Positions 592 through 39,032 of a DNA stretch of 46,578 bases are shown in pieces. The notes beneath the pieces are model-generated. The model made no database searches, had not been told where the DNA came from, and saw nothing but the letters and a program-made list of their open reading frames with translations. The translations under genes were made by a program, and so were the position numbers. The DNA comes from Bacteroidaceae bacterium. Its GTDB lineage: Bacteria; Bacteroidota; Bacteroidia; Bacteroidales; Bacteroidaceae. The DNA is taken from NCBI GenBank assembly GCA_017379075.1, contig JAFNXL010000018.1:1-46578 (forward strand), in the 5' to 3' direction. How positions within the stretch are numbered: the stretch's first letter is position 1; every line of letters starts with the position of its first letter.

Positions 592-671
592 AACACTTAA
601 GTGTTTCTGCAAAATCACTTAAGTGTTACTTCGGAAAGACTTAAGAAAAACTCAAGAAACACTTAAGTCTT
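592..671. repeat. 22-bp-period palindrome array 1 (ACTTAAGT word)
   Basis: Four 14-bp near-palindromes start at 592, 614, 636 and 658, exactly 22 bp apart. The first, AACACTTAAGTGTT, is perfect. All four contain ACTTAAG, at 595, 617, 639 and 661. The 8-bp spacers between them (606-613, 628-635, 650-657) are unrelated to each other. The last unit runs into a T-tract (TCTTTTTTT), so it could act as a terminator. No ORF covers it. Confidence 0.9.
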
Positions 672-1030: not shown

Positions 1031-1084
1031 ACGTCCCTACTCCCTCATTGCTCATTGCTCATTACTCAATGCTCATCGCTCACT
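1031..1084 (-). repeat. Heptamer array (TGAGCNN on minus strand), six units, with GTAGGGACGT end motif
   Basis: On the top strand NCTCA recurs at 1043, 1050, 1057, 1064, 1071 and 1078, an exact 7-bp period. Its left edge is ACGTCCCTAC (1031-1040), two bases before the first unit. The same 10-mer sits at the same two-base distance from the array at 38986. Read on the minus strand it is a run of TGAGCNN ending in GTAGGGACGT. It lies downstream of dpp7 in that gene's reading direction, with no gene of its own. Confidence 0.9.
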
Positions 1085-1186
1085 GTCAAACATTTTTACC
1101 TTTTCCCTTCCAGCATACATAGGTGTCAAAATGAACAAAAATCATTTAAAACAGTTCAAAAAGGCACATAAATGAATGGCTAAAAT

Positions 1187-1288
1187 AGCCCAACTGGAAA
1201 AAAATAATTTCTCAGTTGAAAAAAAATATTTTTCCAGTTGGGAAGTTATTTTTTCGCAACTGGGCGTTTCCAACTTCCTAACTGGAAT
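1187..1288. repeat. 22-bp-period palindrome array 2 (CCAGTTGG word)
   Basis: Five 14-bp units start at 1187, 1209, 1231, 1253 and 1275. Their cores CAACTG, CAGTTG, CAGTTG, CAACTG and TAACTG start at 1191, 1213, 1235, 1257 and 1279, every one 22 bp from the next. The ideal unit is a 6-2-6 palindrome, TTTCCA-GT-TGGAAA, in which only the central dinucleotide breaks symmetry (GT or AC). The 8-bp spacers are mostly A/T. The same word and spacer style recur at 20271-20350. Confidence 0.92.
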
Positions 1289-12277: not shown

Positions 12278-12475
12278 TTCCGGAGCGTCGGAAGTGTTCT
12301 CCCGGGTTGGGAGCGGCTTCCGACACGTAAAAAATGCTCTCCCGGGTTGGGAAGCCATTTCCTGAACCCAAAAAATGCTTTCCCGGATTGGGAAACGATT
12401 TCCTGAACCTAAAAAATGCTTTCCCGGGTTGGGAAACCATTTTTGGAATGTAAAAAAGCCCTCCCGAGTCGGGAG
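12278..12475. repeat. ~41-bp tandem repeat with TCCCGGGTTGGGA palindromic core
   Basis: CCCGG/CCCGA cores start at 12301, 12341, 12382, 12423 and 12463 (steps 40, 41, 41, 40). Each core is an inverted repeat (TTTCCC-GGATT-GGGAAA at 12379-12395; CTCCC-GAGTC-GGGAG at 12461-12475). They are separated by a partly conserved segment (TTCCTGAAC..AAAAAATGC). A further inverted repeat, TTCCG/CGGAA, begins at 12278. The array fills the gap between two convergent genes. The period is not a multiple of three, so the ORF across it on the minus strand is not credible as a gene. Confidence 0.88.
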
Positions 12476-19044: not shown

Positions 19045-20085
19045 ATGAACAGAAGACATTTTATCCAGGGCATGGCCATGACGGCTGCGGCTGCGGCGTG
19101 CCCGGCATCGGCAGGCGCTTTTGCCAAGGAAGCGCCCCAAGTGCAGACTCCGCAGGGTTCTTCCTTCCATAATTTTACCTTCAATGCCCAGGGCAAGTTC
19201 CGTATCATGCAGATTACGGACACGCACTATATTGCCGGTGACGCTCGCTCAAAGCGCGCCATGGACAACCTGATACAGATGCTTGATACGGAAAAGCCCG
19301 ACCTGGTAATCCACACTGGAGACATCATTTTTGCCAAGCCGGCGGAACGTTCGTTCGACGAACTCTTCGCTCCCATCATTGAGCGCAAGATTCCCTTTGC
19401 CGTGGCGTTGGGCAACCACGACGAAGAGTTCGGCATGAGCCGCATGGAGGTTTATAATTACCTCCGTTCAAAACCCTATTGCATCAACACCCCCGAGAAG
19501 GGCATCCATGGCGCCTCAAACGATGTGATAACCCTTTCTTCCACCGACGGAAAGAAGCAGTGGATATTCTATCTGCTGGACACCATGAACCGCAGCAAGG
19601 ACATCAAGATAAATGCTTACGACTATCTCCACTTTGACCAGATTCAGTGGTATCGCGAGCAGAGCCAGCATTTCCGCAGGGAGAATGGCGGAACCCCCGT
19701 TCCGGCATTGGCCTTCATGCACATTCCCGTGTTTGAGCATCTGACGGCATTGGCAGACAGCAAGCGCAAGATCAAGGGAAATCTTCAGGAGAATCCCTGT
19801 CCCTCACTCATCAACTCGGGTATGTTCTCGCAGATGCAGGAGATGGGCGATGTGATGGCGCTTTTCTCTGGACACGACCACGACAACGACTATGTGATGA
19901 AGTGGCAGGACAAGTATCTCATCTATGGCCGTTACAGCGGTTGCAACACCGTGTACAACAATCTGGAGGGAAGCGGCTGCCGAATGATAGAACTGACCCA
20001 GGGACAGACATCCTTCCGCACCTATGTGCGTGTCTTTGACAAAGGCATAGAGCAGGATATGACGCTGCCCAAGGATATGAAGTAA
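19045..20085 (+). CDS. Secreted calcineurin-like metallophosphoesterase
   Basis: Exported phosphoesterase of 346 residues. The N-terminus MNRRHFIQGMAMTAAAAACPASA is a signal peptide with an RR pair like a Tat signal. Two-metal motifs appear in order: DTH (in QITDTHY), HTGDIIF, GNHDE, then MHIP and GHDHDND, which complete the calcineurin-like active site. The spacing fits the Bacteroides family of periplasmic metallophosphatases (purple acid phosphatase/Icc-like). It stands alone, with its own promoter word upstream and a perfect 17-bp hairpin 26 bases after the stop. Confidence 0.9.
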   Translation: MNRRHFIQGMAMTAAAAACPASAGAFAKEAPQVQTPQGSSFHNFTFNAQGKFRIMQITDTHYIAGDARSKRAMDNLIQMLDTEKPDLVIHTGDIIFAKPAERSFDELFAPIIERKIPFAVALGNHDEEFGMSRMEVYNYLRSKPYCINTPEKGIHGASNDVITLSSTDGKKQWIFYLLDTMNRSKDIKINAYDYLHFDQIQWYREQSQHFRRENGGTPVPALAFMHIPVFEHLTALADSKRKIKGNLQENPCPSLINSGMFSQMQEMGDVMALFSGHDHDNDYVMKWQDKYLIYGRYSGCNTVYNNLEGSGCRMIELTQGQTSFRTYVRVFDKGIEQDMTLPKDMK

Positions 20086-20111
20086 ACTGCCCAATCATTT
20101 TTGCAAGCATG

Positions 20112-20152
20112 GCAAACCGCCCCGTTCATTGTTTGTGAACGGGGCGGTTTGC
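20112..20152 (+). terminator. 17-bp perfect hairpin downstream of the metallophosphatase
   Basis: GCAAACCGCCCCGTTCA (20112-20128) pairs without mismatch with 20136-20152 around TTGTTTG. No long T-run follows on either strand, so it may be a bidirectional or processed terminator between convergent genes. Confidence 0.75.
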
Positions 20153-20270
20153 TATATGTGGAAAATTAGGAATTTATAACCACCTTTTTCTTACGGATAG
20201 CTGCGGATGAAAATCTTTTACAAAACGAGAGTACTGTTTTAAGAGCTTCTGCGGCTATAGAAGCGGGACA

Positions 20271-20350
20271 ATTCCAGTTGGGCGGAAAAAAGTGCCCAGT
20301 TGGAAAAAAATATGTTTCCAGTTGGAAAATTATTTTTCCCCAACTAGAAA
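20271..20350. repeat. 22-bp-period palindrome array 3 (CCAGTTGG word)
   Basis: Four 14-bp units start at 20271, 20293, 20315 and 20337. Cores CAGTTG, CAGTTG, CAGTTG and CAACTA start at 20275, 20297, 20319 and 20341, exactly 22 bp apart. Unit three is an ideal 6-2-6 palindrome, TTTCCAGTTGGAAA. Words and A/T spacers match array 2 at 1187-1288 closely, so the two are dispersed copies. Confidence 0.92.
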
Positions 20351-20511
20351 CCCTGTATTAGGGGTGTATTGGCATTTTAATGCTTGATCTTCCATTTTTC
20401 CTCTTTCTATGTACCCGAAAAACGTCAAAAGATAAAGTAAAAAGATTTTACAAAAGATAAACTTCTATAAGACAAGGAGTGTCTCTATATTCATGACCAT
20501 GATTTGTCCAG

Positions 20512-20628
20512 GGTAAGCCAAAGCATTGCAGTACCAACTTTGGTACATAATAAATGGTACTGCAGTACCAGCCAGTTGGTACTGAGGTGTCAGCTTATTG
20601 GTATTGTAGTGTAAGTAAACTGATACGC
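20512..20628. repeat. 22-bp-period palindrome array 4 (GGTACTGCAGTACC word)
   Basis: GGTACTGCAGTACC (20556-20569) is a perfect 14-bp palindrome. Units decay on both sides but keep the step: GGTACTG at 20556 and 20578, GGTATTG at 20600, GATACGC at 20622. Upstream, GGTAAGC at 20512 is in phase, and GTAC at 20543 is 22 bp from GTAC at 20565. The outer units are weaker than in the other arrays. Confidence 0.72.
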
Positions 20629-20810
20629 AAACCCTTGCACAATAGAAAAGTGGAACTATTGTCGTTTATGAGTGAAAGGGATGCATTCTATTCTTAGTCC
20701 CTTGCTAACACATCCTATTCGTCAAAGAATACCAGTTGCACGCCAAAACAAATGATGTATTAAGTGCTAATATGCAACGTGATACGTTTACACATCCCTT
20801 ATATGGAATT

Positions 20811-20904
20811 GTAAATAGATTTACCTTTAAGCGTAAATCCGTTTACATAGTGATGTAAGTGCGTTTACATAGAAGAGTAAATCCATTTACATCGTGATGT
20901 AAAA
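20811..20904. repeat. 22-bp-period palindrome array 5 (GTAAATnnATTTAC word)
   Basis: Four complete 6-2-6 palindromes start at 20811, 20833, 20855 and 20877, with a half unit (GTAAAA) at 20899. Left arms are GTAAAT, GTAAAT, GTAAGT, GTAAAT. Right arms are ATTTAC, GTTTAC, GTTTAC, ATTTAC at 20819, 20841, 20863 and 20885. Every step is 22 bp. Spacers are 8 bp. Confidence 0.93.
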
Positions 20905-20932
20905 AACGGGGCTGCGCAGAGGGGCAGAAATC

Positions 20933-22150
20933 TTATTGTTGTTTGAGTTTTCCCAACATTAAATAGTTGTTATCCCTGTCTGTGTCTATGCTTTTTTCCA
21001 AGGCGGAGAGTTTTTTGCGCATGTCCGGGGAGAGGTCGTTTCTGCGTAGCGCTTCCTGCAATTCTTCCTTCAGGTCGGAGGGTGATACATTACGGCAATA
21101 GTATCCGTTACGCGCATGCTGAAACCAATACACATCAGTGTGGCCAAGGAAATCATTATACATCCGGTACTTTCCGCCCCGCAGCGTGCGCTTGTCCACG
21201 AAGAAGTCCAGGTGGTCACGGCTTTCAAAGGTTACGAAACCATCCTGTTCCATCCTTCCGATAATGGTCCCCACGAAGCATGTTGGATATTCAAAGCATT
21301 CGTTTGGAAAAACCTTGTTCCCCGGCACATCAAACGTGAAGACAGGATGCAGGGACTTGTCCGTGGGGGAACAACGGTAAAGCGAATCATTCTTTTGAGA
21401 CCTAAAAATTAAAAAGGAGAGGTCGAAGGTTCCCGTATTATGCCTATGATAGATTTCCGGACTATAGTCCATCTCTGTCCGCGAACCCTTGTAAGGGAAT
21501 TCTTGCCGTATATTCCCCTCAAAATCCTGTACCCACGCCACTCGGGGATTAACCTTCCAGGGCAAGGTGGCTATGGTAATCTCCTTGCGGTTTCCATCCA
21601 CGCGGAAAACCGATTTTGGCAAATCCCAGGGTTGCTCGTCGGGAGCATTCAGCGGGATGAAGCCCTGAAACTGCCCTTGCAGGTCATAGACAATCAGTTG
21701 TTTTGTTGTCCATGGCATAATATAGATGCGGTTATGTTTCTCATCCAACTGAAAGTCTGAGACCTGGCCATAATTCCCACGTCCATTGCCGGAAGAGCCG
21801 ATGTTGCAGACAAACTTCCCTTGGCGGGTAAACAGCCTGAAGGGCATGTTGCGGCTGCTGTGTACAAGGATGTAATTCTCTGAGACACGCACGCTGGAAC
21901 TTCTTACATAAGCTTCATCTTTGCGCTCCAATGGGATTATTTCCAGATTCTCCACAAAATGGCTCAGCGGCAGTTCTATGCTGTCTGTCAATCTTTCTGG
22001 ATGGCACACAACCACTGTGTCGCCATCCACCACCACACGTTCCGCCACCACCGGCAATTGCGCTATGGCAGTTGCCGCATGTTCCTTTTCCTGTCGTCCG
22101 CAAGCCGTTATGCCCACAAGCAGAACAACCGACAAAATCATGTTTCTCAT
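20933..22150 (-). CDS. Six-bladed beta-propeller lipoprotein, paralogue A
   Basis: Predicted lipoprotein of 405 residues. The leader MRNMILSVVLLVGITAC ends in a lipobox. The mature part has the family pattern seen in four neighbours: an N-terminal 'VENLEIIPLE' strand, then GNGRGNYGQVSDFQ (the G.G..EY motif of the family) and a C-terminal tail ending NNYLMLGKLK. These Bacteroidetes proteins are predicted six-bladed propellers at the cell envelope; no ligand is known. The start at 22150 lies 2 bp after the stop of the TPR-HTH regulator, so the two are cotranscribed, which suggests a shared role. It is the most divergent of the five paralogues and lies on the opposite strand. Confidence 0.8.
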   Translation of the reverse strand: MRNMILSVVLLVGITACGRQEKEHAATAIAQLPVVAERVVVDGDTVVVCHPERLTDSIELPLSHFVENLEIIPLERKDEAYVRSSSVRVSENYILVHSSRNMPFRLFTRQGKFVCNIGSSGNGRGNYGQVSDFQLDEKHNRIYIMPWTTKQLIVYDLQGQFQGFIPLNAPDEQPWDLPKSVFRVDGNRKEITIATLPWKVNPRVAWVQDFEGNIRQEFPYKGSRTEMDYSPEIYHRHNTGTFDLSFLIFRSQKNDSLYRCSPTDKSLHPVFTFDVPGNKVFPNECFEYPTCFVGTIIGRMEQDGFVTFESRDHLDFFVDKRTLRGGKYRMYNDFLGHTDVYWFQHARNGYYCRNVSPSDLKEELQEALRRNDLSPDMRKKLSALEKSIDTDRDNNYLMLGKLKQQ

Positions 22151-26872: not shown

Positions 26873-27169
26873 ACATAAGTATTGAATTGACTTCCCCAAA
26901 ATGGGGGTAGAAATAACAAGTACCTCCCAAAGTCATCCTGAAATTTGCGGTTAAGCGAGAGCAGAGCCAAGCTTGTTTGGCTATGCAGAGCGTGAGCAAA
27001 TTGAACAAAAGTTAACTCGTTTCAGGATCTCACCGAGTAAAAGGGAGGGGTAAGTACAGGCTCGCTTTGAGATGCAGAAACGAGTTATTCGCCTTCGCTC
27101 ATCGAGAACATCTTTAATTACATAAGGTATGGTCAGCATGACAGTCTACTTTGGGCTGTTATATAGAAG
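26873..27169. mobile_element. ~295-bp noncoding repeat element, copy 1, with a 90-bp invertible-looking core
   Basis: This 297-bp sequence matches 38651-38942 along its left flank (ACATAAGTATTGAATTG...CCTCCCAAAGTCAT) and right flank (CTCACCGAG... to TTATATAGAAG). The core 26937-27026 starts CCTGAAATTT, ends GTTTCAGG, and lies in the opposite orientation to the core of copy 2. No ORF is supported inside. With no transposase it is a MITE-like or REP-like unit. Confidence 0.85.
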
Positions 27170-27205
27170 TAAAGAATAAATATTAATGTATAAAAGACAA
27201 GATCA

Positions 27206-38613: not shown

Positions 38614-38638
38614 GCGATGAGCTGTGAGCTGTGAGTTT
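38604..38638 (+). repeat. Heptamer array (TGAGCNN), five units, spanning the permease 2 stop codon
   Basis: TGAGC/TGAGT starts at 38604, 38611, 38618, 38625 and 38632, an exact 7-bp period. The second unit supplies the stop codon of the permease gene, and the array runs downstream in the gene's reading direction. Confidence 0.93.
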
Positions 38639-38650
38639 TATGACAAAAGA

Positions 38651-38942
38651 ACATAAGTATTGAATTGGATTCCCCAAAATGAGTGTAGAAATAACAAGAA
38701 CCTCCCAAAGTCATCCTGAACTTGTTTAACGTTGTTCAATTTGCTCACGCTCGGCATAGTTCAAGCAAGCTTGGCTCTGCTCTCGCTCAATCACAAATTT
38801 CAGGAGTTCACCGAGGGAAGGGGGTAAGTAAAGGCTCGCAGTGAGATGCTGAAACGAGTTATTCGCCTTCGCTCATCGAGAACATCTTTAATTACATAAG
38901 GTATGGTCAGCATGACCGTCTCTTTGGGTTGTTATATAGAAG
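38651..38942. mobile_element. ~295-bp noncoding repeat element, copy 2, core inverted relative to copy 1
   Basis: This 292-bp copy matches 26873-27169 in both flanks in the same orientation. Its 90-bp core (38715-38804, CCTGAACTTG...AAATTTCAGG) matches the core of copy 1 as the reverse complement, at roughly 80% identity by eye. AGAACATAAG occurs at both outer edges (38649-38658 and 38941-38950), which could be a target duplication. Confidence 0.87.
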
Positions 38943-38973
38943 AACATAAGAGACATATTTTAAGCAATGAGCA

Positions 38974-39032
38974 ACGTCCCTACCCTCTCATTACTCACAA
39001 CTCACCGCTCACCGCTCATCGCTCACTACTCT
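38974..39032 (-). repeat. Heptamer array (TGAGCNN on minus strand), about seven units, spanning the FAD oxidoreductase stop codon
   Basis: Top-strand NCTCA recurs at 38986, 38993, 39000, 39007, 39014 and 39021, with a degenerate unit at 39028. The stop codon of the minus-strand gene (39016-39018) is in the 39014 unit. The far end is ACGTCCCTAC (38974-38983), as at 1031-1040, with the same two-base spacing. Confidence 0.92.

Follow-up and report, generated by a model that had tools for sequence, protein, structure and literature searches.

Palindrome arrays in intergenic DNA of some Bacteroidales keep a 22-bp pitch under lineage-specific words

We describe intergenic arrays of short palindromes that repeat every 22 bp, and whose words are lineage dialects over this common pitch. 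As the first-pass annotation had proposed, the period is kept while the word changes, both within the genome that holds our window (the 46,578-nucleotide Bacteroidaceae stretch analysed here) and in 12 of 20 sampled congeners at the threshold used, as well as in Prevotella bivia. The arrays sit mostly near gene 3' ends. The reading we prefer, plausible though short of probable, is that they are side-by-side sites for a dimeric protein that have spread in the manner of REP/BIME elements, mainly at 3' ends.

Our window corresponds to contig 15 in a genome of 3.0 Mb and 106 contigs (G000), and all five arrays previously noted in it at a 22-bp pitch are present in the sequence. The gap from 489 to 1725 holds a ACTTAAGT array at 592..671 (units at 592, 614, 636 and 658, that at 636 degenerate) and a degenerate CCARYTGG array at 1187..1288 (units at 1187, 1209, 1231, 1253 and 1275, the last degenerate). 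The gap from 20085 to 20933 holds a CCARYTGG array at 20271..20350 (units at 20271, 20293, 20315 and 20337), a GGTAC..GTACC array at 20534..20613 (units at 20534, 20556, 20578 and 20600) and a GTAAAT..ATTTAC array at 20811..20890 (units at 20811, 20833, 20855 and 20877). The GGTAC array is the weakest of the five; its best unit, 20556-20569, is its sole perfect one and the rest are degenerate. A degenerate remnant of a GACAAT..ATTGTC array was recognised by eye at 20471..20508, and its intact 22-bp version stands in locus L054. Read from the list of open reading frames, both gaps end convergent genes, whereas our simple gene caller labelled the gap from 489 to 1725 as tandem.

These arrays belong to families of dispersed repeats and so do not represent independent events. 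A genome search with CCARYTGG-14-CCARYTGG returned 33 forward matches, against 0 for the reversed control, and the spacers, which had been taken as unconserved, in fact recur from place to place, being conserved among the copies of one family. Likewise, the three arrays of different words reported in a single gap do lie there, but as parts of one composite repeat (CCARYTGG, GACAAT, GGTAC and GTAAAT, 20161..20932), since a second copy in reversed order is found on contig 88 (L054) and the region 20140-20935 has 47 matches within the genome. In a further locus (L047, 9400-11100) the parts of the composite element are separated: some 1.3 kb lies between the GTAAAT array and the CCARYTGG and GGTAC arrays. 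Two metagenome-assembled genomes, Bacteroidaceae bacterium RGIG7333 and RGIG9105, are close relatives, their versions of a neighbouring protein being 98% and 92% identical, and gave 55 and 51 matches to 20268-20930. TIR-like end motifs occur in the CCARYTGG family of G000 only: TGAAAATCTTTTACAAAA is the left end motif at 20208..20225, identified by sequence comparison by eye, GTAAAAAGATTTTACA the right one at 20437..20452, and TGTCAAACATTTTTAC an end motif at 1083..1098 (1083 being 0-based) directly 3' of a heptamer repeat. This last motif lies on the + strand; the other window features carry no strand assignment.

The annotation had suggested a word-independent scan for 6-2-6 palindromes at 22 bp. 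Bare palindromes in the window alone gave no general 22-bp peak, only the array at 20811 having three good units consecutively, and unit-to-unit word identity therefore had to be added; with identity or periodicity as the criterion, the peak appears. Scanning the window and 20 stretches picked regardless of hits (316,434 bases) for palindromes and identity together, we found a period of 22 bp at 13 places and one of 44 at 3; no other period from 14 to 45 occurred more than once, and a first-order resample control gave 0 places. A scan for periodicity only (p<1e-7, no palindrome criterion) over 654,604 bases of G000 put 32 places at a period of 22 bp and 15 at one of 44, with no other period exceeding 7; 11 of the 40 stretches had been chosen around earlier CCARYTGG-pattern hits, so that the density of this sample is biased and its period is not. 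Dyad scores reached at least 0.7 in 22 of these 32 places, against 1.4 expected by column permutation. Across 20 congeners (1,109,468 bases) the periodicity scan gave 61 places at 22 bp and 28 at 44, with no more than 9 for any other period. Two sister genomes, G012 and G024, account for 34 of the 61 and G021 for 8; the dyad score was at least 0.7 in 34 of the 61, against 4.3 expected. Core-to-core distances of up to 60 bp in three families were 22 or 44, with a single exception of 47.

On the question of whether the period is fixed or varies freely, the peak here and in congeners favours a fixed value, within limits. No clear 22-bp peak emerged from the 241,284 bases covered in 16 genomes belonging to other families, nor, in the palindrome scan, from six named Prevotella/Hoylesella-type loci. 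Among 28 loci from outside the genus sample, 22 bp was seen at 4 places, one of them with a strong dyad, and any other period at no more than 3. Two GAAAATnnATTTTC arrays of G013 (L096 9541 and L171 18776) have a period of 21 bp rather than 22. In G003, adjoining palindromes of different words, such as GTTGACTAGTCAAC and CACGAATAGTCGTG, share one 22-bp register (L180 13736-13850). Mixed words in register at array ends, sought at 22 bp with at least 5 pairs, were found at 0 of 118 array ends. Arrays have four units in 41 of 59 cases in G012/G024 and 14 of 25 in G000. As a universal constant, unit number was rejected, since none of 12 arrays from other congeners has four: one has 2 units, seven have 3 and four have 6-8.

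The words themselves are confined to narrow lineages. Those of congeners are unrelated to one another, as in AAGACGCGCGTCTT, CTCCCCTAGGCGAG, ATACGACCGGTCGTAT, CGAACCATGGTTCA and AAAGGTTAACCATT. Among 101 genomes searched, AAWGGTTAACCWTT pairs at 22 bp had 259 matches in G012, 237 in G024, 28 in G020 and 0 in the 98 others, and the reversed-pattern control gave 0. Prevotella bivia DSM 20514 uses a different word, AAAAGNNNACCTTTT, with 162 forward and 148 reverse matches and a control of 0; in four other genomes neither strand had more than 1 match, and one of the four additionally had 1 control match. Within the genus of P. bivia, 13 of 80 genomes had matches, and the middle letters differ among the matches listed. 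Twenty short array pieces from P. bivia, picked mostly where fewer units were listed, have four (7), five (12) or six units (1). Repeat annotation seeks common sequence, whereas what these lineages have in common is spacing and symmetry, and sequence searches therefore miss the class: a DNA search with the window element matched 0 of 24 congeners, whereas 12 of the 20 sampled hold dyad arrays. Among 16 same-order genomes one matched, over 37 bases only.

Placement relative to genes, assigned with the simple gene caller, favours 3' ends. Among 63 non-redundant dyad arrays, 18 lie in convergent gaps, 35 in tandem and 5 in divergent ones, with 3 at contig edges and 2 inside called open reading frames. 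Divergent gaps thus hold 5 of the 58 placed intergenic arrays, compared with 98 of 462 gaps overall, and 27 of the 35 tandem-gap arrays are nearer the upstream stop.

Comparison of G012 with G024, which are about 93% identical in coding sequence, points to constraint on the words in that pair. In the 13 arrays lying in alignable blocks, 22 of 658 word positions differ, against 33 of 272 in spacers and 161 of 1327 in flanks (p=1e-6 and 1e-11), and an alternative way of finding units gave 33/686, 35/288 and 218/2043. Words thus diverge by 3.3-4.8% and spacers and flanks by 11-12%; the word figure is somewhat underestimated because units were found by consensus match in one genome, and even when doubled it stays below that of the flanks. 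Indels are absent from the 930 array positions, whereas 9182 intergenic ones contain 30. The group of G000 shows no such constraint (words 49/644, spacers 25/264, flanks 181/2112, leaving out one array copy that lost exactly 44 bp), and whole units look to have been exchanged between copies there. Double changes within arrays were set aside as evidence, being not clearly above chance: 64/220 were kept in G000, 138/260 in G012/G024 and 72/128 in other congeners, the latter two counts coming from arrays picked for dyads and taken over ordered pairs.

A fixed pitch, changing words, dyads without pairing and selection in one pair of genomes together fit protein dimers lying side by side. Each array would be a run of predicted sites at which a dimeric DNA-binding protein packs, one dimer per 22 bp (about two helical turns), with the spacing set by protein-protein contact and each lineage's putative protein reading its own word. 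The arrays would spread as dispersed extragenic elements, REP/BIME-like, settling mainly near gene 3' ends, and selection would keep them there in at least one lineage, where they might act as bidirectional boundaries or as transcription-end sites. The suggestion of a dimeric protein every two turns accordingly survives in its core, fixed-pitch binding being the best fit; no protein was found, and, B-DNA having about 10.5 bp per turn, 22 bp is not exactly two turns. A more ambitious formulation is possible but less secure: Bacteroidales chromosome elements defined by geometry instead of sequence, made of quasi-palindromes with heterotypic half-sites at 22-bp pitch. Their reader would be a filament-forming family of DNA-binding proteins that diversifies fast, each lineage having another word, and the elements would be kept as bidirectional boundaries at 3' ends. 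If a protein family does read the arrays, the hundreds of copies that a genome carries close to its gene ends would add a new layer to the way in which common gut and oral bacteria organise their chromosomes or transcript ends, and P. bivia, a cultured and named species, offers a place to look for it.

Serial hairpins in RNA or single-stranded DNA, working as bidirectional terminators or as stabilisers of mRNA 3' ends, would account naturally for arrays at gene 3' ends, and they gain something from the thymine runs: in G012/G024, outward runs of at least 4 T flank 62 of the 118 array ends, compared with 48 of 310 internal edges, so that the arrays may still serve as terminators. Arrays also fold more stably than resampled sequence (-28.0 against -14.8 kcal/mol), and canonical-terminator-like hairpins occur at 20 of 48 array-bearing 3' ends against 21 of 105, although these may be the arrays themselves. 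Real arrays are nevertheless no stabler than unit-swapped chimeras, and tend to be less so, once orientation is normalised (-27.6 against about -30, p 0.04-0.1); an initial version of this test, in which real arrays appeared less stable (p ~1e-6), was discarded, because its chimeras mixed unit orientations and the normalised effect is small. The transcribed strand carries 25 G-T against 18 A-C mismatches, no G-T excess, and the dyads show no covariation. Dyad positions are anti-complementary in three unrelated words: one dyad-related pair of AAWGGTTAACCWTT is non-complementary in 32 of 37 cases, the centre pair of CCANNTGG in 34 of 41, and a dyad-related pair of the P. bivia word in 54 against 27, with 13 cells of other kinds. 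Together with the chimera and mismatch tests, these preserved asymmetries leave pairing unsupported, and with it the earlier proposal of serial RNA hairpins. Array orientation is unrelated to transcription (20 against 15), and the window arrays are by eye preceded by terminator-like hairpins of ordinary type. We consider the hairpin explanation improbable. Rfam covariance models matched nothing in the window and, in six array-bearing loci, only a tRNA; a word-independent covariance model was dropped because its alignment put the arrays out of register.

The arrays might alternatively be neutral or selfish minisatellites within MITE-like dispersed repeats, with a pitch inherited from an old array, words that drift and nothing that binds them. 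This stays a serious, if rather unlikely, contender because the window's own group shows no word constraint, and it draws further on the flanks common to 14 of 25 arrays in G000 and 9 of 20 in P. bivia, on the TIR-like motifs of one family, on the copy short of exactly 44 bp and on the precedent, in the available text on P. gingivalis, of BrickBuilt, a minisatellite inside a MITE. It sits poorly with the constraint in G012/G024, where flanks are common to just 2 of 29 arrays (counted in G012), and with a pitch common to words unrelated in sequence. No consistent target-site duplication was seen by eye at array-bearing repeats, and none of 13 array pairs aligned between G012 and G024 has a gap as an empty site. 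That unrelated regulators should have operators of coincident pitch, or that chance alone is at work, scarcely merits credence: 22 bp is a convenient two-turn spacing, but hundreds of copies near 3' ends and controls near zero speak against it. Mobilisation as true REP/BIME elements by a RAYT transposase is only marginally more credible. The arrays resemble REPs in being extragenic, palindromic, species-specific, high in copy and near 3' ends; just 7 of the 59 arrays in G012/G024, however, have the GTAG/CGTC foot within or next to them, and these genomes (86% and 72% complete) have no match to PF01797 (Y1_Tnp). G000 has two such matches, not linked to arrays. BIME units alternate in orientation, whereas neighbouring GGTTAACC units mostly share one (22 of 27). 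RAYT was rejected as mobiliser on the foot and Y1_Tnp results.

Site arrays for a side-by-side protein, as we prefer to read them, still find their nearest analogues among known repeats. REP/BIME elements, in the available portions of their descriptions, are short, high-copy, species-specific extragenic palindromes near gene 3' ends with regular spacing (PMC2817692, PMC3733652); our arrays share the copy number, the 3'-end placement, the lineage words, the convergent and tandem gaps and the regular clustering, and differ in a fixed 22-bp pitch over unrelated words. BrickBuilt of P. gingivalis, as presented in the accessible text, is a 23-nt minisatellite inside a MITE whose repeats number up to about 23 and are not separated by spacers; it has IS5-like terminal repeats, leader and tail flanks and long predicted stem-loops, and the species also has other 22/23/41-nt tandem repeats (PMC4596501). 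Both are intergenic tandem repeats of 22-23 nt in dispersed, MITE-like Bacteroidales elements, but the period here is 22 bp; the part of that paper's text at hand contains no word starting with 'palindrom'. PINSR, according to the sections available, is a lineage-specific 188-bp intergenic repeat of Prevotella intermedia/nigrescens, present 177 times in one strain and 184 times in another, without terminal inverted repeats, about three quarters of its places being conserved between strains (PMC4755523); compared by description rather than by consensus sequence, it is like our arrays non-coding, intergenic and lineage-specific. These Bacteroidales repeats may be relatives of the arrays, which qualifies the claim that no described repeat class follows such rules; the geometry rule was not found described, a search of open-licence papers having returned no description of a 22-bp rule.

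CRISPR arrays also combine palindromic repeats with spacers of fixed length. Unlike them, the arrays here have a far shorter repeat and spacer, and their spacers, which share a symmetric consensus, turn up again at other loci.

The window holds further repeats. At 12298-12474 lies a 41-bp tandem repeat with dyads, to which copies in L028 and L054 are related; MITE464/PgRS of P. gingivalis is reported, in the text available, to have a 41-nt period too (PMC4596501). Heptamer tandem repeats of the CTCATTG/CTCACCG type, at 1044-1082, 1672-1727 and 38994-39031, often adjoin the ends of CCARYTGG elements, and intergenic TAACTGA heptamers have been described in Beggiatoaceae in the accessible part of one report (PMC4679880). 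Finally, 26873-27183 and 38614-39015 form an intergenic pair about 77% alike over 317 bases, a dispersed repeat with further copies in the genome.
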